A program made the translations under genes and the position numbers. Of a stretch of DNA of 32,108 nucleotides, positions 4,801 through 25,237 are shown one piece after another (the first letter of the stretch is position 1; each line of letters starts with the position of its first letter). The DNA comes from Thermoplasmatales archaeon SW_10_69_26 (GTDB lineage Archaea; Thermoplasmatota; SW-10-69-26), in the NCBI GenBank assembly GCA_003009755.1, contig PXUB01000005.1:25460-57567 (forward strand), given 5' to 3'. Below the pieces are notes generated by a model. The model saw only the letters and a program-made list of their open reading frames with translations. It had not been told where the DNA came from and did not search any database.

Positions 4801-5039
4801 GCCTCGTCGACTACCGGGACCTGGTCAAGACACAGCGCGAGGACGCCCTGTTCTGCCTGGACCTCCCCGAGCGGCTCGGCGACCACCCCGAGGGCGGCAC
4901 CGTGCACGTCGACAGGGACCGCGATGGCCTCTACCTCGAGCACCGCGACGAGGGCGGCCAGACGCTGAAGGAGGTTCGCGGGCTGCGGGCACCGGCGCTC
5001 CGCGAGATGGCGCTGGCCGAAGCCCTCGCCCACCTGTAG
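1836..5039 (+). CDS. topA: DNA topoisomerase I (type IA) with eight C-terminal GRYGPYV repeats
   Basis: The product is 1067 residues and relaxes negatively supercoiled DNA by cutting one strand through a Tyr-DNA bond. The N-terminal Toprim domain shows LVIVESPAK (E9) and the metal-binding D97-E-D99-R-E-G-E. The catalytic Tyr is Y325 in ITYMRTDST. The conserved GIGRPSTYASII follows in the gate region. From about residue 600 the protein carries a series of glycine-rich repeats centred on GRYGPYV, GRYGYYV or a degenerate RDGLYLE; I count eight. No Cys4 zinc ribbon is visible, so these repeats take the place of the usual C-terminal DNA-binding fingers, as in actinobacterial TopA. The repeats are very acidic, which is unusual for a DNA-binding tail. 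The ATG at 1836 is adjacent to the purine run; a GTG at 1842 (giving MTKLVIVESPAK) is better spaced from it and may be the true start. Confidence 0.93.
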   Translation: MPVTKLVIVESPAKVDTVQQYLPSEYEVDSCVGHVRDLPRNADDAPAHVQDEDWADYGVNVDDGFEPIYVTVDGKRDVIQRLRKRLREADELYLATDEDREGESISWHLVEALDPDVPVKRMVFNEITKNAVEAALEDPRDLDMDLVEAQETRRILDRLYGYTISPLLWDKVDAGNEWLSAGRVQSPAVRLVVMRERERRAFTSAEYWDLQALLSDQGERFGATLFALDGTRLATGEDFDRSTGELEPGADRIVLDEDQARDLVDELEPLPWEIADVNERPRQSSPPAPFKTSTLQKAANSRLNMSPGHAMSVAQDLYEDGHITYMRTDSTHLSEEGVEGARKAIADEWSTNLYEGPRSHGGSTADEAEEAHEAIRPAGSTFEAPDDTGLTGRHEQLYDLIYRRTLASQMPNERYTSNTAFVDAGRARFKATGKQVDVAGYRLAWPTKSDANQLPELTPGDQVTLENLEPDGHETKPPKRYTEASLVDALEEEGIGRPSTYASIISRIQEKDYVDKHGRSLVPTLTAFAVVTFLEEHFPHLVEMGFTADMEQTLDRIATGEAEARPYLEAFFLGDDGLQARVDAKDEEVDGSQARAITFEDLDYTIKLGRYGPYVEHDPPDGETVRANLPDDLTPDEIDEDLVQRVIEEEAHTAQDLGEDPATGDEIHLLDGRYGYYVQRGHPEEVDDPDRASLPEDLSPDEVDRELASWLLSLPAEIGDHPDGGEVLVGIGRYGPYVRHDDPSGDQTYENVDDWRQLQDLSLEAALDVLEEPALGSHPDTGQPVFLRDGRYGPYVQLGDADEVEGKPPRASLPEDLDPDQVDVELAAWLLSLPAGIGDHPDGGEVLVGIGRYGPYVRRDDPSGDQTYENVDDWRQLRGLELEEALAVLGDGADDTSPFGKLGSHPDTGQPIELRDGRYGPYVSHGDDNNSLPDEMTPDEVTLDDAVFLVGLPETLGEAPNGDTLLKDLGRYGPYVARKDAGGDRTYVSLVDYRDLVKTQREDALFCLDLPERLGDHPEGGTVHVDRDRDGLYLEHRDEGGQTLKEVRGLRAPALREMALAEALAHL
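3963..4234 (+). repeat. topA internal duplication, copy 1
   Basis: First copy of an in-frame repeat inside the C-terminal part of topA. It holds two GRYGPYV units and is nearly identical at DNA level to the stretch beginning at 4320. The offset between copies is 357 bases at the left end and 381 at the right, the difference being a 24-base insertion in copy 2. Confidence 0.85.
4320..4618 (+). repeat. topA internal duplication, copy 2
   Basis: Second copy of the repeat at 3963-4234. Long runs are unchanged, including synonymous sites (for example the CGACGACCCCTCCGGCGATC segment), so the duplication is recent or kept alike by gene conversion. It carries an extra eight codons (residues around GADDTSPF) before its second GRYGPYV unit. 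Confidence 0.85.
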
Positions 5040-5183: not shown

Positions 5184-5777
5184 ATGAACCCATCCGATCT
5201 CCGCAAGGGTCTCGTCACCAGCCTGCTCACGATCGCGCTCGCGACAGGCGTAGGTGCCTACGGGACCTTCGCGTACTTCAACGACACCGAGGAAAGCACG
5301 TCGAACGTCTTCTCCAGCGGAACGCTGGACCTGGCGCTGGACAGCCCCGACAGCGTCGACGCGTTCGTTGGCGCCGACAACTTCGCGCCCGGCGACGCCG
5401 AGAACGGCACCCTGTTCCTCGAGAACAAGGGATCGATCTCCAGCTACGACGGCGACGGCCACAACGTCAGCCTCTCGCTGGCCGTCTCCCTGGACCAGCA
5501 GGACGCCGACGGCGCCACCACCGACATGGCCAGCTACCTCGAGCTGACCGAGCTCACCTACGGCGCGAACGATCTCACCAGCGAGGTCGCCGACGCCAAC
5601 GAGAACGGCCGCACCGACCTCGCCGACCTGGCCGCCAGCAACGTGACCGACCTCGAGGACCCCGGCAGCGCGGGCCGCGACCTCGCCGTCACCGTCGACT
5701 TCGCCGAGGACGCCGGCAACGACCTGCAGGGCGACAGCGTCGACGCGACGTTCGCGTTCACGCTCGAACAGCGCTGA
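5184..5777 (+). CDS. TasA/camelysin (CalY)-like secreted fibre subunit
   Basis: This is a 197-residue exported protein. The N terminus has a Lys/Arg start, a hydrophobic segment (about residues 11-28) and then GTFAYFNDTE, followed shortly by FSSGTLDLAL. That combination is the hallmark of the TasA/CalY (M73) family, whose signal peptides are cut by SipW-type peptidases just before the aromatic-F-N/S-D segment. TasA forms matrix fibres in Bacillus. Archaeal homologues such as AbpA of Pyrobaculum calidifontis form bundling pili by donor-strand exchange. The rest is a beta-rich, Asp/Ala-rich domain with an FAPGD segment. It has its own ribosome site and leader hairpin, and a hairpin follows its stop. 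The next gene encodes the matching signal peptidase. Assignment as a fibre subunit is by family; polymerisation here is inference. Confidence 0.8.
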   Translation: MNPSDLRKGLVTSLLTIALATGVGAYGTFAYFNDTEESTSNVFSSGTLDLALDSPDSVDAFVGADNFAPGDAENGTLFLENKGSISSYDGDGHNVSLSLAVSLDQQDADGATTDMASYLELTELTYGANDLTSEVADANENGRTDLADLAASNVTDLEDPGSAGRDLAVTVDFAEDAGNDLQGDSVDATFAFTLEQR

Positions 5778-5791
5778 CCCGCCCGACGGCC

Positions 5792-5822
5792 ACGGGGGCT
5801 GGGCCCCCGTCTCCCTTCTCTT
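5792..5822 (+). terminator. hairpin with pyrimidine tail between tasA-like and signal peptidase genes
   Basis: ACGGGGGC (5792-5799) and GCCCCCGT (5803-5810) form a perfect 8-bp stem with loop TGG, followed by CTCCCTTCTCTTC. It starts 14 bases after the tasA stop. It could end most transcripts there, or protect the 3' end of the fibre mRNA, giving more subunit than peptidase. Confidence 0.5.
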
Positions 5823-5826
5823 CATC

Positions 5827-6396
5827 ATGCTCACGAACCGGCGATGGATCGTCGGCCTGCTGGCCGCCCTCACCCTGGCCGCAGCCGCTCCCATCGCCGT
5901 GTACGCTCAACCGGGCTTGGTCGGCGACGACGAGGCCCGCATCGTCCTCACCGGATCGATGGAGCCGGCGGTCTCGCCCGGCGACGTCGTCCTTCTCGAC
6001 ACCGACGTCACCGTCGACGAGGTACGCGTCGGCGATGTCGTCACCTTCCGCGGGCACGCCGACGCCGGGACCACCTACACCCACCGTGTCGTGGACGTCA
6101 GCGAGAACACCGGCGGCACCGTGCTCGTCACCAAGGGCGACGCCAACGAGGACCCCGACCCGATGCGGGTCGACGACGCGATGCTCGTCGGCGCGGTGGA
6201 CCACCAGATCCCCGTCTACGGTAAGGCCGTCGACGGGGCCCACTCGCTGCCGCTGGCTCCCCTGTTGGTCGGGCTCAGCATCGTCACGATCGTCCACGAG
6301 CTCGTCCGCCTGCGCTCGCGCCCCGCCGAGGGCGTCGGCTTCGACCCCGTCGAGGGCCAGACCCCCGAGGGGGCCACGTTCGAGGTGGTCCGATGA
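5827..6396 (+). CDS. sipW: signal peptidase I, Sec11/SipW type
   Basis: A 189-residue membrane-bound peptidase that removes signal peptides from exported proteins. It has an N-terminal membrane anchor (about residues 8-28), then the catalytic Ser in GSMEP (S44), the His that replaces the bacterial Lys (H86 in TYTHRV) and the Asp in KGDANEDPDP (D105). Ser-His-Asp is the ER/archaeal/SipW form. A second hydrophobic helix lies near residues 140-158 and the C-terminal tail is cytoplasmic. The family also includes general archaeal Sec11 enzymes. Its position right behind a TasA-like gene argues for a dedicated SipW role, while its motifs alone do not separate the two. No Shine-Dalgarno is visible before the ATG. 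The stop overlaps the next gene as ATGA. Confidence 0.87.
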   Translation: MLTNRRWIVGLLAALTLAAAAPIAVYAQPGLVGDDEARIVLTGSMEPAVSPGDVVLLDTDVTVDEVRVGDVVTFRGHADAGTTYTHRVVDVSENTGGTVLVTKGDANEDPDPMRVDDAMLVGAVDHQIPVYGKAVDGAHSLPLAPLLVGLSIVTIVHELVRLRSRPAEGVGFDPVEGQTPEGATFEVVR

Positions 6397-6812
6397 TGCG
6401 CACCCTGCTGGTGGTCGCCCTCGTCGCCACCGCCGGCTTCCTGGCGCTGGAGACCGTGCCCACGCTGGCCGGCCTCGCCGACGAGGAGCAGGCCGCAGGA
6501 TCCTTCACCGTCGACCTCTGCCACGAGCGCGACTGCAAGATCGCGCACGCTGACAGCCTCGAGGACCACGACTGCGAGGAGGATCGCTGGAAGTTCGTCA
6601 TCACGCGGGTCGACACCGACCGGGCGCCCTCCAGCATCCACGTCACCTGGGAAGGCGGCGCCGACGCCACCGTCGGCCTCGACCGCGCCAGGGGCAAGAC
6701 CGCCCACTACACGACGTCTTCGTACACGGACCGCCCCGTCGAGGACGCGACAGCCCGCATCTACGAGGCGTGGGACGGCAACTTCAGGCTCGGCGAAGGT
6801 CCGTGCTCGTGA
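6393..6812 (+). CDS. small secreted Cys-containing protein, third gene of the tasA/sipW set
   Basis: A 139-residue product with a signal peptide (RTLLVVALVATAGFLALE, then a Thr/Ala region). The mature part has four Cys: two in DLCHERDCKI, one in DHDCEEDRW and one at the C terminus (GPCS), which could form two disulfides. The middle (WKFVITRVDTDRAPSSIHVTW, here shortened to its pattern of alternating hydrophobics) suggests a small beta-sandwich. It overlaps the signal peptidase gene by 4 bases (ATGA). GAGGTGG at 6382-6388 fits a start at 6393 or, slightly better, at the adjacent ATG 6396. I do not recognise the family. Tight coupling to a TasA/SipW pair suggests an accessory, anchor or assembly factor for the fibre, in the position that TapA holds in Bacillus, but there is no visible TapA similarity. 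Confidence 0.7.
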   Translation: MMRTLLVVALVATAGFLALETVPTLAGLADEEQAAGSFTVDLCHERDCKIAHADSLEDHDCEEDRWKFVITRVDTDRAPSSIHVTWEGGADATVGLDRARGKTAHYTTSSYTDRPVEDATARIYEAWDGNFRLGEGPCS

Positions 6813-6813
6813 A

Positions 6814-8209
6814 TCAGTCGTCGACGTCCCGGTAGTCGACGGTTTCGCTCCCGTCGTGGGCGTGGAACTCGCCGCCGTCCTCGTCGGTGTCGCACACGAT
6901 CGGGGTCCGGACCTCGATCGCCGCCCGCGGCGTGCTGGGGGCCGGCGTCGAACGTCCGGGGGTTGTGGGCGTGCGAGTTGCCCGCCGCCGCGTCGGGCTG
7001 CGGGTTCTCGCCCTTGCCGTGGCGAACGTCGGTCTCGCGGATCTCGTCCTCGCTGTCGGTGGGGCCGTTGTCGAAGGCCGCGAAGTCCACCGCGAGCAGG
7101 AAGTTGTACTCGATCGAGCACTCGTAGGAGGCCCGCTGATCGGTCTTGCATCCCTCGTAGGCCTCGTCGAAGGGGTTCTCCGTGATCGGCATCCCCTTGA
7201 CGTCGCTGCCGTCCTCGTACGTCCACGGCGCCTGGTCGACGTAGCCCATGCCGGACGAATCGACCTGCAGGTGGACGGCGAACAGCGGCTCGACGAGCAC
7301 CGCGTCTTGGGTCTCGTTGTGGCAGGCCTCGCCGTCCGAGCAGTCGTGGTTGCCCTGGTCGGACCGGTCGTCGCACCGGTCGTGGTGCGGGTAGCTATCG
7401 CGCGGGTCCGACACCGGGACCGTCCCGTCGTCGCTCTCGCAGCTCCCGTCGTTGCCGATGTTGTCCTCGCCCTCCTGGAAGAGGTTGCCGAGGACCGACA
7501 CCGGGTACACCATCTTGTCGACGATCCAGCTGACGTCCTCGAAGGTGTCCGGCATGTTCGGGTCGGAGATGAAGAACGAGCTCTGGTACTCGAAGATGCA
7601 GCCGGCGCAGGCCTGGTCGAGGTCGATCAACCGCTTCACGAGGTCCATGTTGTCGTCCAGCGGACCGCAGTTGCCCGCGGTCGCGTTGCCCTCGTAGCCG
7701 TTGTCCGCGGCGCTCGCCCGTGCCTGCTCGCAGCCCTCCCGGCCGGTCGCGTTCGCCGTCTCGTCGCTGGCGAAGACCGGCCCCGCACCGTAGGGGTCGT
7801 CCTTGCCGATCGCGAACGCGAACCCGTCGGGCGTGTAACAGCCACCCCAGCGCCCGGTCTCGCCGTTGGGCTTCTTGAGGTCGTTGTCCTCGGGGTTGAC
7901 ACCGAGCGCGCTCTCCGGCGTCTCGTTGCGGACCTGCTCGTTGTTCTTCTCACCGAAGAGGAACTGGTCGTTGAACCACAGGACTGCGTTGTCGAAGACG
8001 TTGCGGACGCGCTTGCACTTCTTGATCAGGCCAACCACGGCCGCGAACTTGTGCACCTCCTCCTCGCCGTCCTTGTCCTCGACGATGATCTCCACGAACA
8101 CCGAGTGCTGTTGCACGCCCGTGACGCCGCTGGCCTCCGCCTCGTCGCCGTTGAAGATCCGCTCCTGGGTCACGGCGAGAGCCGAGCCCGTGAGGGCCAG
8201 GACGAGCAT
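6814..8209 (-). CDS. secreted Cys-rich protein of unknown family, probable frameshift near 6937-6941
   Basis: The reading frame codes for about 450 residues after a signal-like region ARRRLVAVMLVLALTGSALA. The mature protein is acidic and Cys-rich (CAGC in DQACAGCIFEY, several CxxxxxxC pairs) and ends with a His-containing segment. The open frame continues past 6937 as Arg/Pro-rich nonsense that runs 52 bases into the convergent gene. Dropping one base from the G-run at 6937-6941 restores an acidic tail (STPRAAIEVRTPIVCDTDE and then EFHAHDGSETVDYRDVDD) with a stop at 6814-6816, one base beyond the convergent stop. I therefore place the true end at 6814. The start is uncertain: AGGGAGG (8244-8250) points to codon ATC at 8234-8236 or ACG at 8237-8239, while the first ATG (8209) leaves a signal peptide without basic residues. 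No family recognised. Confidence 0.65.
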
Positions 8210-8295
8210 GACGGCGACCAGGCGGCGTCGAGCGATCGTGGTGCCTCCCTCGCCCGCGACCGAGCGAGCGTGGTCCAGCCGTTGGCTCGAAACAG

Positions 8296-8302
8296 CATAA
8301 GG
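8296..8302 (-). promoter_or_regulatory. possible TATA-like box for the 6814-8209 gene
   Basis: On the minus strand this reads CCTTATG in a GC-rich setting. A start site about 25 bases downstream (near 8273) would give a short leader that still contains the AGGGAGG at 8244-8250. Confidence 0.3.
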
Positions 8303-8395
8303 TCGATGCAGTAACCCTCGGTGGGAACACACCGCCACGGGCCTCCCGTCTCCACTCGGGTCGCGAGAGGCCGTCGTTCACAACGTTTCCGAGGG

Positions 8396-8410: not shown

Positions 8411-8466
8411 AACTACGCGGTATCGAATTGGTTGAGGGGCCCACCCCCCTGTGGGAGGCAGTCGAT

Positions 8467-11400
8467 ATGTCGATTCCAACCCCGGCCGAGTCGAAGCAAG
8501 ATAGCAACGGGACAGATGCGTTGCTCGGATCGCGAGTTTGGGCCGTTCTGCTGGCTCTCGTGGTCGCGGGTGCTGGCTTGGCGATGCTGGCCTCGCCCGC
8601 CGCCGCAAATCACGGTGGTGACGCGATCGTGGTGGACGACGCCGGCGATGGAGACTTCACCACCATCGACGACGCCACCGCTCACGCGAGCCCCGGCGAC
8701 ACCATCGAGGTGCGCTCGGGCACGTACAACGAGGCGATCTTCGTCAGCACGAACGACACCGGCGCCGAGCTCGACGGTCTCACGATCGCCGCCGAGACCG
8801 CCGACGGCGGGAACGCCGACGTGACCGTCGACGCGACCGGCAACGCGAAGACCGTCGCCGACATCCGAGCCAACAGCGTCATGCTGCAGAACCTGACGCT
8901 CACCTGGGACGGCGAACAATCCGACAACGTGCACGGCGTGCACGTCCAAGCCGCCGGCGCCCAGCTCACCGACCTCTCGATCGAGCTCCCCGCCGGCTTC
9001 TGCTCGGTGCAGAACGGAAATTGCAGCGGACCCGACGGCACCGGTGTCCAGGCCGACGCCGGCGTCACGATCGACAACCTCGACATCTCCGCGGATCTGG
9101 TCAACGCGACCGATCAACGCGCCGCGGCCACGCACGGTGTGAACGCCAACACCGAGGACCCCGTCGTCGTGAACGAGACGACGGTCGAAGGCTTCGGCAT
9201 GGGCGTCGTGACCTGGGGCGAGGACACCACCGTCCTCGACTCCACGTTCACGCAGAACGTCCGCGGCGTCCAGGTCGCCGCCGACGGCGTCGAGGTCCGC
9301 GGCTCCGCCTTCACCGGCCACGTCCGCGCCGTCTACATCGCGGGCACCTCGCCCTTCTCCCCGCAAGACGTCACCCTGCGCCAGAACGACTTCGACCTCT
9401 CGAACACCGAGGCGCTCGCCTTCGAGGATCTCGAGGACGACACCGTCGAAGACGCCGTGATCGACGCCGAGCTGAACTTCTGGGGCGTCGTCAAGGAGGA
9501 GCTCATCGAGGAGTCCCGGATCGGCTGGACCGCCGGCAACCGCGTCAACGACGTCGACTTCCACCCCTACCTCAACGCGAATGGCGCCCAGATCCCGCCC
9601 AAGCCCGCCGTCAACTGCATCATCGACGAGAACCGCAACGTCACCTCCGTCACGCAGACGCGCACGCTGCAGGCCGCGGTCGACGTCTCCCTCGACAGCG
9701 AGTGCAAAGACTACGACGAGGACGGCACGGTCGAGCGCATCATCGTGCTCGATCCCAGCTTCGAGGAGTACGAGGGCGCCGTGATCGACACCCAGGTCCG
9801 CCTCGAATCCAGCGCCACGGAGGGCGTGGACGACGGCTCCGAGGCCACCCAGGGCGCGGTCGACTTCGGCGCTCGCATCCAGGCCCAATCCGGCGAGCCC
9901 GGTCTCCGCTTCGTCGACGGCAGCCAGAACTCCCACGTCGAAGGCATCGGCATCCAAGGCGAACCCGTCGGCACGACCGCGATCCGCGCCGAGGACATCT
10001 CCGGCGACAGCGGCATCACGATCGAGGACGTCGGCACCGGCAGCCGCAACGACGAGAGCACGCAAGCGCTCGCCGTCCGCGAGGTAACCAACCTCACCGT
10101 CACGTCCAGCACGTTCCTCAGCGGCGACACGACGGTCACGCTCGAGGCCACGACCGACACGACGATCGAGGACTCCCGCATCGCCGTCCAGGCGCCCCGC
10201 GACGCGCCCGGCGGAGACGCCACGGCCGTCGCCATCCAGGGCGCCGAGGGACCCTCGCTCGACGACAACACGATCTTGGGCAACGCCGTCGAAGGGTCGA
10301 CGGCCATCGAGATCGTGGACGCCAACGAGCCCGTCGTCTTCGACAACGTCGTTGCCAACACCATCGAAGGTATCGTCGTCGAGACGTCGACCGAGGCCAC
10401 GATCGAGAACAACACGCTGGCCTTCCCCGCCGTGACCAGCGCCTCCGACACCATCGGCATCGAGCTCGTCGACGGCGCGAACGCGACGGTCGACCGGAAC
10501 ACCATCCAGGTCGCCGAGACCGGCCTCGGCATCGACGGCACGACCGGCGTCGAGGGCGACCTCAACCGCTTCAACGGCACGACGACCGGCGTCAACGTCG
10601 CCAACCTGGCCGAGGACGAGCTCGACGGCGTCACCGACCTGGCGCTCAACAACGGCACGAAGGCCGCCACGCTGCGCGCCCTCGTGCTCGAGGACACGAC
10701 CGCCAACCTCGACGTCAACGTCGAGTGCAACGACTGGGGTGTCTACCAGCGCGACCTGATCCACGCCCAGCGCATCTTCGACGGTGGCGAGAACAACGAC
10801 GTCGACGCCCAGCCGTTCACCAGCCCGAACAAGAACAGCGGCGAGGTCGAGTGCCTCGTCCCGCCGAAGGCCGAGTTCTCCTTCGCGCCCGAGGAGTCGA
10901 TCACTCGCCTCGACGAGATCGACTTCATCGACGAGAGCGAGTCGGGCACCTACGACATCGATGATTGGGCCTGGGACTTCGACAACGGCAACACCAGCAC
11001 CGAGCAGAACCCCACGATGTCCTACGACAGCGTGGGCACCTTCTTCGTCGAGCTGACCGTCTCCGACAGGGTCAACATGTCGAGCTCCAAGGTGCACAAG
11101 GTCCAGGTCGAGAACCTGGAGCCGGAGCTGTCCGCGGTCCCCGACCCCACCTTCGAGCACAACGACGAGCTCTCCTTCGACGTCGAGGTCTCCAACTTCG
11201 ACATCCAGCAGTCCGAGGGCGACAACGTCACGATCGAAGCCTACGAGCTCGAGAACGGCGAGGAGACCCCCCTGCCGGCGAACGCCCAGTTCCAGATGGT
11301 GGACAACAGCACGGGCACGTTCACCTTCTCGCCCAACGCCGACCAGGACGACAGCTACGACATCCTGTTCCGGGCCGACGACGGCTACAACACGACGACG

Positions 11401-13935
11401 GCGGAGTCCACCGTCACCGTCGTCAACCAAGCCCCCGTCTACGACCCCGAGCTCCCCGACCTCGTCGGCGGGGTCGAGGGCGACAACGTCACGATCGAAG
11501 CCAACGCCCTGGACCCCGACGACGGCGACGAGGTGGATAGCCTCGCGGTCGACATCTCCGAGCTGCCGGGGAACGCGACCGTCACCGGCACCACCGACAA
11601 CACGACCCGCACGGTCGAATGGCCGACCGAGACCGACGACGCTGGCAGCTACAACGTCAGCTTCACGGCGACCAGCCCCGCCAAGTCGACCACCGAGGAG
11701 GTCACGATCGAGATCCGCGAGACCAACGCTCCGCCCTCGCTCACGATCTCGGGCGAGACGACCCAGGTCGACGGCGAGATCGCCACGCTGGAAGCTCAGG
11801 CCGACGACCCCGAGAACGACGACATCAACTGGAGCCTCGAGACCGACCCGGCGATCGACGGTGACTCGCTGCAGGTCCAAGGCAACGAATCCCAGTGGGT
11901 GTGGGACGTCCCCGCCGGCACGAACGGTACCTACAACGTGACCTTCTCCGCCGCCGACACGTTCGACGGCGAGGTCAGTGCCACGGAGACGGTCACGATC
12001 AAGGCCACCCCGTACCTCGACACCCTGCTGCCGCGAGAGACGGAGACGGACACGTTCACGCTCGAGCCGCTCGTCGGCTCGACGACCGAGTTCGCGTTCT
12101 GGGCCGAGGACCCCGACGGCGTGCTGACGTCCTCCGAGCTGTCGGTCGAGATCGGCTCCGCCTCCGGCAGCCAGACGTTCACGCCCGAGGTCGTCGATGC
12201 CAGCGCGGAGGAGCCCCGCAAGTGGGCCGTCCAGACCCCGCTGACGGAGACGGGCCCCCACTACGTGAACGTCACCGCGGTCGACGACGAGGGCTACGAG
12301 ACCTTCGAGAACACGACCTTCATCGTGCAGGAGAACGAGGCCCCCAACATCACGCTCGAGCAGGAGGTCGTCTGGGCCAACGCGACCGACCCGTTCGGCG
12401 CAACGGTCACGCTCGAGGCCGACGCGGTCGACCCCGAAGGCCGCTCGATCGACGACGAAAGCTTCGTCTGGTCGGTCGAATCCGGCCCGACGCTCAAGGA
12501 TCCGTCCGTGAACGTCACGCTGCCCGTCGGCACCCACAACGTCCAGCTCGAGGTCACCGACCCGATCGGTGTCTCGGCGACCGAGACCGTCGTCGTCAAC
12601 GTCGACGACACGATCGCGGTCGACGGTGCGCTGGACGCCACCGACCAGGGTGACTTCTACCAGGTCGACCCGACGCAGCGCGCGCTCGAGGAGCTCACCG
12701 GTACCGCAACCGTCACCAACGATCTGGGCAACGGTGTCGACAGCTCCATCGTGACCGGCACGGTCATCTACTACGGCGCCGAAGCCAACGATCAGGGCGT
12801 CGGGGTCGGTAGCTTCGAGGTCACCACCAACGCCAGCGGCGTCGCCGACTTCTCCTTCGACCAGGAGATCGCCGGCGCGGCCGGCGGCCAGAGCATCCTC
12901 TCGGCGCCCGGCTGGCACGAGATCGCGCTGACCGCCGACGCGGCCAGCCGCGATCAGGCCCCCGACAACGACCAGGAGGTCGACCGGGACTCGATCCTCT
13001 ACTTCGTCTCGCCGAACGTCCCGCCCGAGGGCCCGGACACGACCGGTGCCCACGCCGAGGCGGCCTGCTACGACGCACCCGCCAGCGAGGACAACCGCAG
13101 CGGGGCCCAAGACGAGGCCCGCGTGGCTGTCGAGGACGGCGCCCCGACGGCGAGGGCGCCCGCGCCGGGCAACGTCGCCGAGGGCGCGCAGACGTTCGCC
13201 GAGCAAGGTGCCGACTGCAAGCGCGGCTACGCGCAAGCGACCCTGCTCGCGCTGGGCACCTACGTCCAAGCCTGCTACGACGGCGAGGTCCACATCCAGC
13301 TGAACGAGGGCCAGTGCCCCACCAGCGAGGAGAGCACCTTCGACCCGCCCGCGATCCCCGGCGGCAACGCCGGGCAAGCCCTCGCGGCCGGCCTCCAGGC
13401 GGAAGGCGCCTGCTTCTACAAGGACGACGGCGGCGAGGACACCGTGCAGGCGACCGCCGACCTGGAAGGTCTGGACGCGACCCAGCCCGACCTCGAGGCC
13501 GCGCAGTCCGCGCTGATCGCGTGCGCGAGGGGCCTCACCAGCGGCGAGCTGCCGCAGGGCGGCAGCTACCTCGCGGTGACCGGCACCGCCGGCGACGAGG
13601 CCGTGGTCGTCACCGTGAACACGGTGCCGGCGTCGGACCTCGTGACCGGTGAGGACGAGAACGCGACGATCGCGGCCGTCGAAGGCCAGGGCGCCTGCTA
13701 CTACGGCGGCCAAGGTGCCGAGGACGAGGCCAGCGTGTTCCTAGGCCCGCCCGCGCCCGACACGACCACGCCCGCGGCCGAGAACGTCGCCGCGGCGCTG
13801 ACCGCGTGCGGCTCGGCCGCCACCGACGGCTCCATGCCCGAGGGTGGCAGCTATGCTCGCTTCACGGCCACCATGGCCGGCAGCACGGTTGCGGTCTCGG
13901 TCGACACGGTCCCGCTCTCGGACGCCCTGACGTGA
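8467..13935 (+). CDS. giant secreted surface protein: two beta-helix modules, PKD, Ig/cadherin-like domains, Cys repeats
   Basis: A 1822-residue exported protein. The signal peptide ends near residue 48 (LAMLASPAAANHGG). Residues about 50-375 form a parallel beta-helix module (DAGDGDFTTIDDAT; short turns with D/N-T/I repeats) closed by a W-G-V cap that ends NDVDFHPYL. Residues about 385-795 form a second module ending with the same kind of cap (DWGVY to NDVDAQPF). A PKD domain follows (WAWDFDNGNTSTEQNP near residue 834). Then come several Ig/cadherin-like beta domains opened by NQAPV, NAPPS and NEAPN, and two or three C-terminal Cys-containing repeats from about residue 1525. Many N-x-S/T sites suggest N-glycosylation. 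No C-terminal membrane helix or PGF-CTERM-like signal is visible. I chose 8467 because of the Shine-Dalgarno; the upstream ATG at 8428 lies close to the predicted transcript start. Likely an S-layer-associated or adhesive protein; exact role unknown. Confidence 0.85.
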   Translation: MSIPTPAESKQDSNGTDALLGSRVWAVLLALVVAGAGLAMLASPAAANHGGDAIVVDDAGDGDFTTIDDATAHASPGDTIEVRSGTYNEAIFVSTNDTGAELDGLTIAAETADGGNADVTVDATGNAKTVADIRANSVMLQNLTLTWDGEQSDNVHGVHVQAAGAQLTDLSIELPAGFCSVQNGNCSGPDGTGVQADAGVTIDNLDISADLVNATDQRAAATHGVNANTEDPVVVNETTVEGFGMGVVTWGEDTTVLDSTFTQNVRGVQVAADGVEVRGSAFTGHVRAVYIAGTSPFSPQDVTLRQNDFDLSNTEALAFEDLEDDTVEDAVIDAELNFWGVVKEELIEESRIGWTAGNRVNDVDFHPYLNANGAQIPPKPAVNCIIDENRNVTSVTQTRTLQAAVDVSLDSECKDYDEDGTVERIIVLDPSFEEYEGAVIDTQVRLESSATEGVDDGSEATQGAVDFGARIQAQSGEPGLRFVDGSQNSHVEGIGIQGEPVGTTAIRAEDISGDSGITIEDVGTGSRNDESTQALAVREVTNLTVTSSTFLSGDTTVTLEATTDTTIEDSRIAVQAPRDAPGGDATAVAIQGAEGPSLDDNTILGNAVEGSTAIEIVDANEPVVFDNVVANTIEGIVVETSTEATIENNTLAFPAVTSASDTIGIELVDGANATVDRNTIQVAETGLGIDGTTGVEGDLNRFNGTTTGVNVANLAEDELDGVTDLALNNGTKAATLRALVLEDTTANLDVNVECNDWGVYQRDLIHAQRIFDGGENNDVDAQPFTSPNKNSGEVECLVPPKAEFSFAPEESITRLDEIDFIDESESGTYDIDDWAWDFDNGNTSTEQNPTMSYDSVGTFFVELTVSDRVNMSSSKVHKVQVENLEPELSAVPDPTFEHNDELSFDVEVSNFDIQQSEGDNVTIEAYELENGEETPLPANAQFQMVDNSTGTFTFSPNADQDDSYDILFRADDGYNTTTAESTVTVVNQAPVYDPELPDLVGGVEGDNVTIEANALDPDDGDEVDSLAVDISELPGNATVTGTTDNTTRTVEWPTETDDAGSYNVSFTATSPAKSTTEEVTIEIRETNAPPSLTISGETTQVDGEIATLEAQADDPENDDINWSLETDPAIDGDSLQVQGNESQWVWDVPAGTNGTYNVTFSAADTFDGEVSATETVTIKATPYLDTLLPRETETDTFTLEPLVGSTTEFAFWAEDPDGVLTSSELSVEIGSASGSQTFTPEVVDASAEEPRKWAVQTPLTETGPHYVNVTAVDDEGYETFENTTFIVQENEAPNITLEQEVVWANATDPFGATVTLEADAVDPEGRSIDDESFVWSVESGPTLKDPSVNVTLPVGTHNVQLEVTDPIGVSATETVVVNVDDTIAVDGALDATDQGDFYQVDPTQRALEELTGTATVTNDLGNGVDSSIVTGTVIYYGAEANDQGVGVGSFEVTTNASGVADFSFDQEIAGAAGGQSILSAPGWHEIALTADAASRDQAPDNDQEVDRDSILYFVSPNVPPEGPDTTGAHAEAACYDAPASEDNRSGAQDEARVAVEDGAPTARAPAPGNVAEGAQTFAEQGADCKRGYAQATLLALGTYVQACYDGEVHIQLNEGQCPTSEESTFDPPAIPGGNAGQALAAGLQAEGACFYKDDGGEDTVQATADLEGLDATQPDLEAAQSALIACARGLTSGELPQGGSYLAVTGTAGDEAVVVTVNTVPASDLVTGEDENATIAAVEGQGACYYGGQGAEDEASVFLGPPAPDTTTPAAENVAAALTACGSAATDGSMPEGGSYARFTATMAGSTVAVSVDTVPLSDALT
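13043..13932 (+). repeat. tandem C-terminal Cys repeats of the giant surface protein
   Basis: Repeat openings are EAACYDAPASED (near 13060), EGACFYKDDGGED (near 13405) and QGACYYGGQGAED (near 13690). The last two copies also share a second half: LIACARGLTSGELPQGGSY against LTACGSAATDGSMPEGGSY, then a VVTVNTVPASDL against VAVSVDTVPLSDAL ending. Each of these two has one Cys in each half, fitting one disulfide per repeat. The first copy is more diverged. Confidence 0.7.
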
Positions 13936-14092: not shown

Positions 14093-14995
14093 TTACGTCG
14101 CGTCCGCAGGGACCTCGGTGGCAAGCTCCCCGGGGCCGTCGACCGGCGCTGACCCCGGCTGGGCCTCGCCGTCGGCCTCGGCCCCGGCCCGGGGCTCGTC
14201 GGCCGGGGACAGGCCCAACGCCGCGCCCAAGCGGGTCACCTGGTCGCCGACAGCCGCCAGGCCGTCCTGCAGGCCGGCCTGGGTCGCCTGCATCGCCCCA
14301 ACGGTCACCGACCGGGTCCAGCCGGTGGCGCCCTGGACGCCCGCGAGCGCGCCGTGCGTCCCGCTGGCCAGGCCCTGCCCCGTGGCCGAGGCGGCCTGAC
14401 CGGTGGCCGTTGCGGCCGTGGCGAGGCCCTCGCCAGCCAGACGCAGCCCGTCGACCGGGAGGCTGGCCACGTCCTGGACGATGGCGAGGGTGCGGTTGAG
14501 GAAGATCGCCGTCCGCTCGAGGAACGTCTCGAGGTGGGAGGGCGCCTGCTCGGGTTCCTCGCTGGTGGCCTCGACGAACGCCTGCGCGGCCGCGACCTCG
14601 TCGCGGGCCGCCTGTTCGGCGTCGTCCTCGGCCTCCTCGGCCCGAGCCGTCTCCTCCTCGGCCTCCTCGGCGTCCTGGTTTTCGCCGGCGCGCTCGGAGG
14701 CCGGCGGCACGCAGTCCAGCGCCTGGCCGGCGGCCTCGCCACCGCGCTCGTCGACGGCGTAAGCGCTGTCGCACGTCCAAGCCTCCGTCCAGTTGGCCTG
14801 CTCGCCCTGCCAGGAGGCGTTCGTCGCGTTCGCCGCCGCCTGGGCCGGGTCGCTGGCGGCGTCCTCGGCCACGCCCTGGGCGTGACCGGCGGCCTCGGTC
14901 GCCTGCTCCTCGAGGCTCTGAGCCGCGGCCGAGGCGGGCAACAGGCTCAGGGCCAAGACGACGGCCAGCGGCACCGCGAGCCGATCAGCGTTCAC
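14093..14995 (-). CDS. secreted Ala/Glu-rich coiled-coil protein
   Basis: A 300-residue exported protein. It starts at a GTG (14995) preceded 5 bases upstream by GGGAGGAGGA (15001-15010). The signal peptide is clear (ADRLAVPLAVVLALSLLPASAAAQ). Two Cys (WTCDSAYAV and ALDCVPP) may pair. A strongly charged Ala/Glu segment (EEAEEETARAEEAEDDAEQ) predicts a coiled coil or single alpha helix at about residues 90-130. It is followed by an amphipathic region (TFLERTAIFLNRTLAIV) and a Gly/Ala/Thr repeat stretch (ATATGQAASATGQGLAS) that looks like a membrane- or surface-lying helix. The C terminus is acidic and Pro-rich. Its start overlaps the end of the beta-helix gene by 11 bases, so the two are translated together and probably act together at the cell surface. 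No family recognised. Confidence 0.75.
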   Translation of the reverse strand: MNADRLAVPLAVVLALSLLPASAAAQSLEEQATEAAGHAQGVAEDAASDPAQAAANATNASWQGEQANWTEAWTCDSAYAVDERGGEAAGQALDCVPPASERAGENQDAEEAEEETARAEEAEDDAEQAARDEVAAAQAFVEATSEEPEQAPSHLETFLERTAIFLNRTLAIVQDVASLPVDGLRLAGEGLATAATATGQAASATGQGLASGTHGALAGVQGATGWTRSVTVGAMQATQAGLQDGLAAVGDQVTRLGAALGLSPADEPRAGAEADGEAQPGSAPVDGPGELATEVPADAT

Positions 14996-16487
14996 GGCGA
15001 TCCTCCTCCCGGGCGTCGAACCGGTTGGCTTCGAGCACGACGGGCGTGTTGTCCCGCACGTCGTCGAGCGTGACCCCGTAGGTCGCGTTGGCGCCCTCGG
15101 TCGCCTGGATCTGCACCCGGCTGGCGTTGACGTCCTCGAAGAGGAACGCCGTCGTGTCCGCGGGATCGCCACCGTCCACCCAGCCATAGCCCTCCGGCGC
15201 CGGGCTGGAGGGCCGCTGGAACGCGAAGCGGTTGCCCTCGGCGTGCAGCGTGGCGCGGTCGGCGGTCTCGGCCTCGAAGGCGGGCACGAGACCGGCCCCG
15301 CGTGGCGCCGGGCGCGTGAGATGGTTGCCGGTCAGGTCGATGCGGGCCTCCTGGGTGAGCCCCTCGTGGCGATCGTTCTCGGCGTTCACCACGTCGAACG
15401 CGAGCGAACCGCCGTCGATGTCGTTGCCGTGCACCCGCAGGTAGGCGTGGTGCTCGTGCTTGTCCTCGAGGTAGGGGTTGGGCTCGCTGTCGGCGGTCTG
15501 GTCGTCGCCGGCGTGGGCTTCGTCGTAGAACCGCAGGGCGCGGTCGGCGCCCTCGACCTCGATCGTGTTGTTCTCGAAGTCCAGCACGTGGTAGCGGTAG
15601 GAGTGCCGGCTGCGGGGCTCGCCGCCCTCGATCGTGTCTGCCGGGAAGTCCTCGGGGTCTTGGTGGGCGTGGGCCGGGCACGCGGAGCAGGAGCCGTGGA
15701 AGTGGCCGTGCAGCTTGACGTCCACGCGGCCCTCGACAGTGTTGTTGTGGACGTGCGCGCCGTGGTAGCCGTCGAAGTTCCACACGACGTCCTCGTCCAG
15801 CTCGGCCGGCCCGGTGTCCGAGAGGTAGGTCTCGACGACGCCGTCGGGGCGCGGGCCGACGTCGTTGTGCTGGAACGTGCCGCCGAAGTGGCGGATCTGC
15901 CCGATGTAGTCGATCTCGTTGTGCTCGAAGAGGCCGGCCGTCGTCGGCCCCTCGCGCTCGACGTTCTCGTTCACCCGCAAGTCGCGCACGTGGTTGTGGT
16001 GGACGTAGACCTCCTCGCCGACGAAGTTCAGCGTGAGCTGGCCGTCGATGTAGCTGTTCTCGACGACGAGCGGGCGGCTGGTGTCCTCGATCGTCAGCTC
16101 CTCGTCGACGCGGAAGCCGTCGATGACGTAGGGGTTCGAGAGCGTGCCGTTGCCAGTGATGTAGCCCTTCTCAGCCATCTCGACCAGGCCGTCGTCGCCC
16201 CGGACGACGAACTCCTCGAAGTGGTGGGGCAGCTCGCTGGCCTGGGCGCGAGAGGGGACCTCGCCCTCGCGGTCGCTCAAGGCGTGGTCGTGGCGGGGCT
16301 GGTGGGCCAACGTCGTCGCCGAGGAACCGTTGGCCTCGTGGTCGTGGTCCTCGGCTTCGTGGCTGGCCGTTCCAGGGTCGGTCTCGTCGGCGCTCGGAGC
16401 CTCGTCCGGGATCAGGCCGACGGCGAGCGTGGCGACCAACAGCGCGGCACCCAAGGCGGCCAAGAGACGGAGGGCTGTCCCTCGCAT
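14985..16487 (-). CDS. secreted right-handed beta-helix (NosD/CASH-like) protein with a His/Cys cluster
   Basis: A 500-residue exported protein with signal peptide RLLAALGAALLVATLAVGL. After an acidic, His-containing linker it has YITGNGTLSNPYVIDGF (about residues 110-126), the entry motif of archaeal NosD/CASH beta-helix proteins, and then many turns of the type VENSYIDGQLTL or VHHNHVRDL. Such helices bind or cut carbohydrates or act as surface scaffolds; no catalytic set can be singled out. Near residues 259-276 lies HGHFHGSCSACPAHAHQD, with five His and two Cys in 18 residues, which could hold a metal ion. Another His-rich patch (DHDHEANG) precedes the helix. The C terminus REEDRRER overlaps the start of the coiled-coil gene. 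A TATA-like CTTAAG about 24-31 bases before the ATG suggests a leaderless transcript. Confidence 0.8.
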   Translation of the reverse strand: MRGTALRLLAALGAALLVATLAVGLIPDEAPSADETDPGTASHEAEDHDHEANGSSATTLAHQPRHDHALSDREGEVPSRAQASELPHHFEEFVVRGDDGLVEMAEKGYITGNGTLSNPYVIDGFRVDEELTIEDTSRPLVVENSYIDGQLTLNFVGEEVYVHHNHVRDLRVNENVEREGPTTAGLFEHNEIDYIGQIRHFGGTFQHNDVGPRPDGVVETYLSDTGPAELDEDVVWNFDGYHGAHVHNNTVEGRVDVKLHGHFHGSCSACPAHAHQDPEDFPADTIEGGEPRSRHSYRYHVLDFENNTIEVEGADRALRFYDEAHAGDDQTADSEPNPYLEDKHEHHAYLRVHGNDIDGGSLAFDVVNAENDRHEGLTQEARIDLTGNHLTRPAPRGAGLVPAFEAETADRATLHAEGNRFAFQRPSSPAPEGYGWVDGGDPADTTAFLFEDVNASRVQIQATEGANATYGVTLDDVRDNTPVVLEANRFDAREEDRRER

Positions 16488-22723: not shown

Positions 22724-25237
22724 TTATCCGACGAAGCCTTCCTGGATGATGCCGGAGTCGGGGGCCGGCGGGGCGTCCTCCTGATCGTCGTTGCGGCTGG
22801 GGTCGTTGTCGAAGGGGTCGACGTCGAACCACGTGTGCTGGCCCTGGCCGAACGGGTAGGGATCGTCCCCGGGCTGGAAGGTGGGGAACATCTCGCTGCC
22901 CTGCAGCGTGCCGTCGCTCGAGGGCACCCGGAAGGTGTACATCGTGACGATCGTGTCGCCCTTGCAGTCGGACGAGCAGTCGTGCAGGAACTGCAGGCTG
23001 CTGTCGAAGTTCCCGCTGGGGCCGCTGCACTGGCCCTGGAACGTGGCCCGGTTGAGGTTCTCGCCGGGGACGACGACGCCCGGGGCATCGCGGCCGAGCT
23101 CGTCCGTGACGTAGCTCCCGAGCTCGTCGACGAGGACGTCGACCTCGGTGTCGAGCGGGTTGGCGTTCGCCTGATCGGGCTGGTATAGCTCGCGGGCCGC
23201 GTGGCTCATCATCAGGTAGATGTTGTTCCCGTCGGCGTAGGGCACGGTCTGGCCCGTGGAGGGCTCGACGAAGGTCGTCGGCTCGTTGAGGTACACGGCC
23301 TGCACGAGGCCGGTCTCGACACCGTAGCCGAGCGATGCCATGCCTTGCGGCATCCGGCGCTCGCCGATCTCGCAGCCCTCGCTCTCGGCGGGCTCGTAGC
23401 TGTCACCGTCCTCCTGGGCCCACATGTTCCAGATCATCGGGTAGGCCCCGCTCTGGACCGGATCCTGGTCGTTGTACTTGACGCCGGCCTCGAGCTGGTC
23501 GTACTCGCCGTCGTCGTCCTTGTCGGTGAAGATGCCGACCTTGCCGTTCGTCTGGTAGAGGCTCGGACCCGGTCGGTTGCTGGCGTCCTGGCTGTCGTCC
23601 GAGGTGCCGTAGGGACCGACGCGGCGCTCGATGCGCTCGTCGCTCACGTACGTGAGGCTCGCGTCCGCGTCCTGGACGGCCTGAGCGCGGCTGTCGAGGT
23701 AGTCGATCCACGGGTCGACAGTCTCCGGCTCCTCCTGGGCGAACAGCTGCTCGCACGCGCCCGTCAGGTCGCGCTTGAGATCCTCGGTCGGGAGGTTCCC
23801 GTCCTCGAAGGTGCGGCTGGTGTCGTCGACGGAGCCGATCGGGTCGGCGTTGTTCGGCTCGAGCGTGTCCTCGCGGACGACCGCGCTGGTCTCGGCCGGC
23901 ACGGGCAGGTCGCTGGGGAGCTGGCTCGTGGGATCACCCAGCGCCTCGGCAGCTTGGCCGGTGCGCTTCTCGGCGACCGCGTCCGCGTAATCCCACGCCT
24001 CCGGCACGGCGGCACCGGCCTGGGCGGAGCTCACGGACCCCGCCGTCGTGAACACGTCGAGCTCGTGGGCCAGGAACGGGTGCTCGAAGGGCCCGTCGGG
24101 GCTGAACGAGAAGCCGGGCTCCTGGGCGCCCGAGCACTGGGAGTTGTGCGGTGCGATGACCCAGTGGAAACGGATGTAGTCGGTCTGCCCCTCGGGGCCG
24201 GCGAGCGTCGAGCCCGGTACGACGGGCGCGCTGTTCCCGCCGGGGATCTCCGGGTCGGTCAGGCCGAGGCAGAAGCAGGCCTCGTAGTACCAGGCCGGGC
24301 CGTTGGACTGACCGCAGACGTAGGTCGGGGACTCGCACTCGTCCTCGTAGCTGTCGAACGTCAGGTCGCGTTCGCTATCCGTGCTGTAGAAGTTGAAGGC
24401 GAACTCGCAGTTCAGGCCGGCGGCGCCGGGGCCGACAGTCGTGAACCGGAAGTCCGGCGTGTAGCCGCACACGGCGGGCTCGCTGGCGGGGTTGAGCTTT
24501 CCGTTCTTCTCCTTGGTCTTGACGATCTGGTTGAGGTTCTCCTGCGTGATCGTGTTCCCTTCGCCGTCCTCGATGTAGGCGATGAAGGACGTGGAGAGGG
24601 TCGGGACCCACCAACCGTTCATCTCCCAGACCCCGGTGTTCTGTTGGACCGTGCGGCCGGGGTCGGCGTAGTGGGCCCGGACATCGTGCTCGCGGCCGCG
24701 GTCGGAGGGTTCCTTGTCGTCGGCATCGTTCGGCCGGTCAGTCAGGCCGGCCGCAGCGCCAGCGGTGTGGACGGCCTCGAAGGCTAGGTCGCCGCCCGCG
24801 GGCTGGCCCTCGCCGTCCGGGCAGAACGGCACACAGGTGCCTGCTGCCGAGCCGACGGTGTTCGCCCGGATCACGTCGAAGCTATCGATCGCCGGGATTC
24901 GCAGATCTTGGTCGGGCGGGCTGGTCTGCGTGAGCTCGTTGTTGTCCTCGTGGTAGACGAGCATCCCGCAGAACCCGTCCGCTGAGAGCGCAGCTTGCGC
25001 CTCCTCGGTGGAGACCTCGCTACTGGGGTCGTGACACTTCTCGGAGGGGGTCGTTCCCACACCGTAGGGGGTCTCCCAGGTGTCTGTGGAGGTCCCGGGG
25101 ACGGTGCGGCTGTCGGTGGTCTCCTGTGGGGACGTCCCGATGCTGTCCCGCGCGCCGGCGCTGAAGTGGTTCGCCATCGCGGCGGGCATCGATCCGATGA
25201 CTAGCGCTAGACAGACGACAAGAGCGAGTCTCTTCAT
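22724..25237 (-). CDS. large secreted Cys-rich protein, unknown family
   Basis: An 837-residue exported protein. It starts at an ATG with GGAGG 8 bases upstream (25246-25250). The signal peptide is typical (KRLALVVCLALVIGSMPAAMA). The mature protein is acidic and has many Cys, often close together (CVPFC, YEACFCLG, HDCSSDCKG), suggesting a disulfide-stabilised extracellular protein. A Ca-binding-like acidic loop, FTDKDDDGEYDQLEAG, resembles a single dockerin/EF-type loop. The segment FHWVIAPHNSQC and the C-terminal PDSGIIQEGFVG are distinctive, but I know no family with them. No membrane anchor is visible at the C terminus. It stands alone between two apparent terminators or promoters. A weak paralogy to the 6814-8209 protein is suggested by similar composition and Cys/acidic patches but is not demonstrated. 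Confidence 0.75.
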   Translation of the reverse strand: MKRLALVVCLALVIGSMPAAMANHFSAGARDSIGTSPQETTDSRTVPGTSTDTWETPYGVGTTPSEKCHDPSSEVSTEEAQAALSADGFCGMLVYHEDNNELTQTSPPDQDLRIPAIDSFDVIRANTVGSAAGTCVPFCPDGEGQPAGGDLAFEAVHTAGAAAGLTDRPNDADDKEPSDRGREHDVRAHYADPGRTVQQNTGVWEMNGWWVPTLSTSFIAYIEDGEGNTITQENLNQIVKTKEKNGKLNPASEPAVCGYTPDFRFTTVGPGAAGLNCEFAFNFYSTDSERDLTFDSYEDECESPTYVCGQSNGPAWYYEACFCLGLTDPEIPGGNSAPVVPGSTLAGPEGQTDYIRFHWVIAPHNSQCSGAQEPGFSFSPDGPFEHPFLAHELDVFTTAGSVSSAQAGAAVPEAWDYADAVAEKRTGQAAEALGDPTSQLPSDLPVPAETSAVVREDTLEPNNADPIGSVDDTSRTFEDGNLPTEDLKRDLTGACEQLFAQEEPETVDPWIDYLDSRAQAVQDADASLTYVSDERIERRVGPYGTSDDSQDASNRPGPSLYQTNGKVGIFTDKDDDGEYDQLEAGVKYNDQDPVQSGAYPMIWNMWAQEDGDSYEPAESEGCEIGERRMPQGMASLGYGVETGLVQAVYLNEPTTFVEPSTGQTVPYADGNNIYLMMSHAARELYQPDQANANPLDTEVDVLVDELGSYVTDELGRDAPGVVVPGENLNRATFQGQCSGPSGNFDSSLQFLHDCSSDCKGDTIVTMYTFRVPSSDGTLQGSEMFPTFQPGDDPYPFGQGQHTWFDVDPFDNDPSRNDDQEDAPPAPDSGIIQEGFVG

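Follow-up and report, generated by a model that had tools for sequence, protein, structure and literature searches.

How TasA-type fibres are started and ended outside Bacillus subtilis is a question raised by TapA, which is not conserved even within Bacillus. In B. subtilis, mature TasA subunits are linked via their N-terminal region, which acts as a donor strand, and TapA, the N terminus of which is nearly identical to that strand and which has a complete Ig-type domain, is able only to start the filament (PMC9674648, PMC10151520). A three-gene locus of Thermoplasmatales archaeon SW_10_69_26 brings this question to an archaeon. The locus occupies positions 5184-6812 of the stretch of DNA analysed here (32,108 nucleotides of contig PXUB01000005.1, hereafter the window), and the original prediction read it as a compact matrix-fibre or pilus system comprising a TasA-like subunit, a SipW-type peptidase of its own and a new accessory protein in the position that TapA takes in Bacillus.

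Rereading of the sequence reproduced every coordinate, gap, overlap, motif and cysteine count that had been given for the locus. The three genes form an operon on the plus strand, located between topA, with its stop at 5039, and a convergent minus-strand gene, the likely true stop of which is at 6814-6816 (the window lies at a contig end, in a 95%-complete assembly). The tasA-like gene (5184..5777, plus strand), encoding a putative fibre subunit of 197 residues, is followed after 49 bases (5778-5826) by the ORF of a signal peptidase of 189 residues (5827..6396, plus strand), the stop of which overlaps the start of the third gene by four bases, ATGA (6393..6396, plus strand, as read from the sequence). 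The third gene (6393..6812, plus strand) encodes a secreted protein of 139 residues, a putative accessory. As judged from profile homology, the three-gene observation is more than chance, with PF12389, TIGR04088 and TIGR02228 all scoring above their curated cut-offs.

Large secreted proteins, both beta-helix/PKD-like and acidic surface proteins, occupy much of the window (8428-13935 and 14985-16487), so the operon sits in a region rich in surface proteins. The convergent minus-strand ORF (6814-8338, 525 residues) has an apparent one-base frameshift near 6930, which may mean either that the gene is broken or that the assembly is wrong at this point; its alternative frame reads ...AIEVRTPIVCDTDEDGGEFHAHDGSETVDYRDVDD and ends at the stop at 6814-6816, one base from that of the third gene. 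Comparison of its product (8338..6814) with a large secreted protein encoded at 25237..22724 revealed them to be unrelated, and both were set aside.

With respect to the first gene, sequence homology identifies its product as a member of the TasA/CalY/camelysin family. The protein matches PF12389 over profile positions 2-191 of 196 (54.1 bits, cut-off 22.5, E = 2.3e-14), a family that all seven of its archaeal relatives also match and that, among 14 control genomes, was found in B. subtilis only (1/14). Its leader matches the SipW-type leader model TIGR04088 over residues 15-48 (33.4 bits, cut-off 19, E = 3.5e-8). The motif GTFAYFNDTE...SGTLDL lies at residues 27-50, within the segment that spans the end of the leader and the mature N terminus (residues 27-52, GTFAYFNDTEESTSNVFSSGTLDLAL; 5262..5339, plus strand; TIGR04088 and alignments A3 and A6), i.e. 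the region that constitutes the donor strand in mature B. subtilis TasA (PMC9674648). A single-sequence search of solved structures with the subunit gave the TasA filament chain 8aur at E = 0.35; a profile built on the seven archaeal relatives (A6) gave 8aur at E = 4e-7 and a second TasA structure, 5of1, at E = 1e-6, with a C-terminal GNxxQG...LxQ motif likewise aligned. Together with the two family matches, these results bear out the assignment of the subunit to an archaeal TasA family. An AlphaFold2 model of the subunit, made from the single sequence with no alignment, had a pLDDT of 36 and did not reproduce a jelly-roll, and a scan of viral contigs found no TasA relatives.

The Pfam title of PF12389, 'camelysin metallo-endopeptidase', taken literally, would imply a protease, and would suit a protein that is monomeric, either secreted or of the spore-coat type, and that forms no fibre. 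We consider this very improbable, given that its characterised relatives, TasA and the archaeal bundling proteins, assemble into filaments through donor strands (PMC9674648, PMC10151520) and that the archaeal protein conserves both the segment corresponding to the TasA donor strand and the QG...LxQ motif at the C terminus.

The second gene product has Ser44 in TGSMEP, His86 in YTHRV and Asp105 in KGDAN, which we take to be its signal-peptidase boxes. Its score against the model for archaeal signal peptidase I, TIGR02228, is well above the cut-off (83.6 bits, cut-off 51.85, E = 1.3e-23), whereas that against the SipW equivalog model, NF046067, is 65.2 bits and below the cut-off of 190. By these profile scores the protein is an archaeal signal peptidase I that is SipW-like but under the SipW equivalog threshold, and it is therefore named SipW-like here rather than SipW. 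As an enzyme of the SipW/archaeal type, the predicted peptidase is borne out.

Is this peptidase part of a fibre module, or does the organism use it as an archaeal signal peptidase I for secretion in general, its adjacency to tasA being incidental and no dedicated processing module existing? A general role would be in line with the pattern of the archaeal model passed and the SipW model failed, and with the protein being the sole TIGR02228 match in the 95%-complete genome of the window. We nevertheless regard it as improbable. The pairing of tasA with a SipW-like gene is retained in a sister genus (genome G001), in another family of the same class (G003) and across further families of the phylum. 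Furthermore, G003 carries a second signal-peptidase candidate, and no protein of genome G002 (98% complete) matches TIGR02228, which indicates that the model misses housekeeping peptidases in these organisms. The proposal that the system has its own peptidase is too strong as worded: the enzyme may be dedicated to the module, but no other protein in the assembly matches TIGR02228.

We then consider whether the arrangement as a whole recurs. TIGR04088 was run against 390 genomes of the phylum and matched in 16 of them, the loci of which were then read. The order tasA, sipW-like gene, third gene, with a four-base overlap of the latter two, is present in seven genomes representing six genera and five families, namely that of the window (G000), G001, G003, G086, G099, G212 and G241; hence the module of subunit, peptidase and third secreted protein is one that relatives share. 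The third gene starts inside the end of the sipW-like gene at GTGA in G001 and at ATGA in G003. The bodies of the third proteins vary: that of G001 resembles filamentous-haemagglutinin repeats (sub-threshold PF13332), that of G003 is beta-helix-like by eye (sub-threshold DUF7305), that of G086 is kelch-like by eye, and those of G099, G212 and G241 are unassigned. Among the 390 genomes, no other tasA has as its neighbour a protein with the body seen in the window. Recurrence of the third gene next to tasA and sipW, as anticipated, therefore applies to the slot and its identical four-base overlap at the seven loci, but not to the body of the protein.

The main rival to an accessory role for the third protein is that tasA and the peptidase build the fibre, with the third gene encoding a surface protein that shares the peptidase and has no part in assembly. 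Bodies that are unrelated to one another are what such a cargo slot might be expected to contain. Four-base overlaps, moreover, are frequent in prokaryote operons and do not necessarily imply functional coupling. The retention of both the slot and the exact overlap at seven loci in five families argues in the other direction, and overall we view a cargo slot as possible, though unlikely.

A different layout is seen in one further family (four genomes, G047, G104, G233 and G266), which has at least two TasA-like genes; the final one has a weaker leader and adjoins or overlaps sipW, and is followed by a regulator-like gene or by nothing. In G003, G004, G005 and G006, all of the window's class, a signal-peptidase gene is flanked by secreted proteins with motifs such as AFNxAxxxxRxVxAxVVxDxxAYL; these four loci have no convincing TasA leader and were set apart as a second peptidase-linked cluster. 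Genome G384, from the same phylum, has, at three loci, at least six very large frames (over 700 residues) that open with a SipW-type leader, and no SipW-like gene within the stretches read around them.

The leaders of the third proteins provide evidence on their relationship with the fibre. When the mature N terminus of TasA, in the form of a position-specific matrix, was scored against the third proteins, with 5000 shuffles each, no shuffle was as good as the leaders of G099 and G086 (0/5000), the leaders of G001 and G212 gave P values of 0.015 and 0.017, respectively, and neither the G003 nor the G241 leader reached significance. A profile HMM of TasA leaders, searched against 1716 ORFs, matched the third proteins of G001 (E = 6e-4), G086 (E = 1e-3) and G099 (E = 1e-4); both leader models were trained on TasA leaders from the same set of genomes as the loci tested. 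On these comparisons the leaders of several third proteins are TasA-like, clearly in two cases and more weakly in two. A likeness to the TasA mature N terminus in four of the seven leaders would be needless for plain cargo, and thus favours an accessory role. At E values up to 10, NCBIfam gave no SipW-leader match for the G000, G001 or G003 third protein.

The leader of the window's own third protein includes a juxtamembrane segment at residues 24-42 (TLAGLADEEQAAGSFTVDL; 6462..6518, plus strand). In an ungapped comparison with the TasA leader it was not significant (P = 0.69), and the proposal that this protein has a directly TasA-like leader was dropped; on this point the protein favours the cargo interpretation. 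The leader does resemble that of the third protein of G001 (TLAGFTDTGTGTGNFTAN): the pair scored 40, whereas shuffles averaged 14.6 and none of 3000 did as well, this being one of 21 pairs compared; the stretches compared were TLAGLADEEQAAGSFTV of the window's protein and TLAGFTDTGTGTGNFTA of the G001 protein. Its link to TasA is consequently indirect, as it is tied to TasA solely through this sister genus. All of the leader tests, this last one included, were devised once the loci had been seen.

Following the leader, the window's third protein consists of a single copy of an all-beta domain (residues 46-139; 6528..6809, plus strand; alignments A4 and A5). Residues 46-137 match another protein encoded in this genome (E = 1.4e-18) and one from a further member of the class (E = 9e-17), and because of these matches to domains in two other proteins the third ORF is regarded as a real gene. 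An AlphaFold2 model made with nine homologues has seven beta strands, with a mean pLDDT of at least 90 in each ten-residue block from residue 51 and with residues 1-40 at low confidence. A Foldseek search of the model against solved structures in the PDB gave nothing below E = 0.001, Ig V domains reaching a TM score of only about 0.36, and we therefore claim no fold name. Searches of Pfam and NCBIfam gave no family over cut-off for either the third protein or its domain, including no match to TapA or to any other curated accessory family. For this reason, and given the leader result above, the third protein is not filed as TapA. The protein has exactly four cysteines, at positions 43, 48, 61 and 138; Cys61 and Cys138 are common to most members of the domain, whereas Cys43 and Cys48 are extra in the window's protein.

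As a query against GTDB contigs the third protein alone found no match, and a profile of the domain found few loci. The consensus, DHxCxxxEWHFVI...AHYxT...WxGxFNLSHGPC, is drawn from the window (6528-6809) and ten further loci (L004, L019-L022, L063-L066 and L074). The protein in the same genome (L004) is a beta-helix protein, with Beta_helix and NosD over cut-off, of which the domain forms the C-terminal half; that in the same class (JAJPHT010000029.1) has the domain at the C terminus of a repeat protein resembling it, and at another locus the domain is at the C terminus of a PKD-type protein. On five bacterial and IMG/VR contigs (L020, L021, L063, L065 and L066) the domain, 85-90 residues long, lies near the N terminus of secreted proteins, before long Thr/Pro-rich stretches, and in one case (L064) it lies between two such stretches; one copy is on the megaplasmid of Thermomicrobium roseum. 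Thus, in contrast with its location before Thr/Pro-rich stalks in bacteria, or at the end of beta-helix and PKD proteins in archaea, the domain in the window stands alone after a short leader and adjoins tasA-sipW. That it also occurs on surface proteins of unrelated kinds, at loci with no tasA nearby, is a further point in keeping with cargo. The third protein, proposed to be new, has a body that is not confined to this locus: it is a widespread surface domain, common to archaea and bacteria, that is undescribed in that it has no Pfam or NCBIfam entry.

Taking the evidence on both sides of the cargo question together, we think it probable that the three genes together, as an operon, specify an extracellular fibre of the TasA type, with a SipW-processed accessory encoded by the third gene. 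The first gene product would be the major subunit, exported via Sec with a SipW-type leader. Cleavage by the SipW-like peptidase would then expose a new N terminus that, by analogy with B. subtilis TasA, would serve as the donor strand completing the next subunit. The third gene, tied to that of the peptidase through the four-base overlap, would add another secreted protein, one that this peptidase probably also processes and that may start, anchor or cap the fibre via its own N terminus, so placing the beta domain at the cell surface or at the fibre end. Extension of this proposal to the whole phylum is more tentative: the sipW-coupled slot may hold an exchangeable end-piece, in which a short TasA-like leader is joined to a lineage-specific surface domain (beta-helix, haemagglutinin-like, kelch-like or the EWHFVI domain) that acts as a starter or tip adhesin. 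If this is correct, a fixed sipW-adjacent slot with varied secreted proteins would provide a simple rule for finding fibre partners across archaea, and it would suggest that the leader, rather than the body, couples the accessory to the fibre. The results also place TasA-type fibre genes, together with a peptidase gene, in several families of this archaeal phylum, which has been little studied, and point out a surface domain that archaea and bacteria share.

Comparison with known systems reveals both similarities and differences. With the archaeal bundling pili (AbpA of Pyrobaculum calidifontis; AbpX, structures 9rhp and 9sj2), the locus has in common an archaeal TasA-like filament subunit family, although the match of profile A6 to AbpX (E = 0.03) is weak and confined to the first strands. 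The tapA-sipW-tasA operon of B. subtilis likewise combines a TasA-family subunit, a SipW-type peptidase and a secreted accessory, the gene for which overlaps sipW; a leader resembling TasA is present on the accessory there and in some of the archaeal relatives. The order differs, being tasA-sipW-accessory in the archaeal locus. In B. subtilis tapA is upstream of sipW, with overlapping stop and start codons (PMC10151520), so that the overlap is on the other side of sipW and the third gene, downstream, is not in TapA's position as had been proposed. The archaeal accessory also has a body that is not that of TapA and that differs by lineage, and in the window its leader is tied to TasA only indirectly; perhaps it is TapA-like in its working, but it is not a TapA homologue. 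The sipW-tasA/capP/calY system of B. cereus and sipW-bsaABC of C. perfringens similarly combine SipW-dependent subunits with lineage-specific secreted accessories, albeit with other accessory proteins, in another gene order and in other organisms (PMC13082335, PMC7395162). In B. cereus the accessory CapP is processed by SipW and is required for TasA/CalY filaments (PMC13082335), and in C. perfringens bsaB and bsaC mutants have fragile pellicles and less BsaA polymer (PMC7395162). The archaeal layout fits the plan of these three bacterial systems in comprising a subunit, a peptidase and a lineage-specific accessory that is made together with the peptidase.
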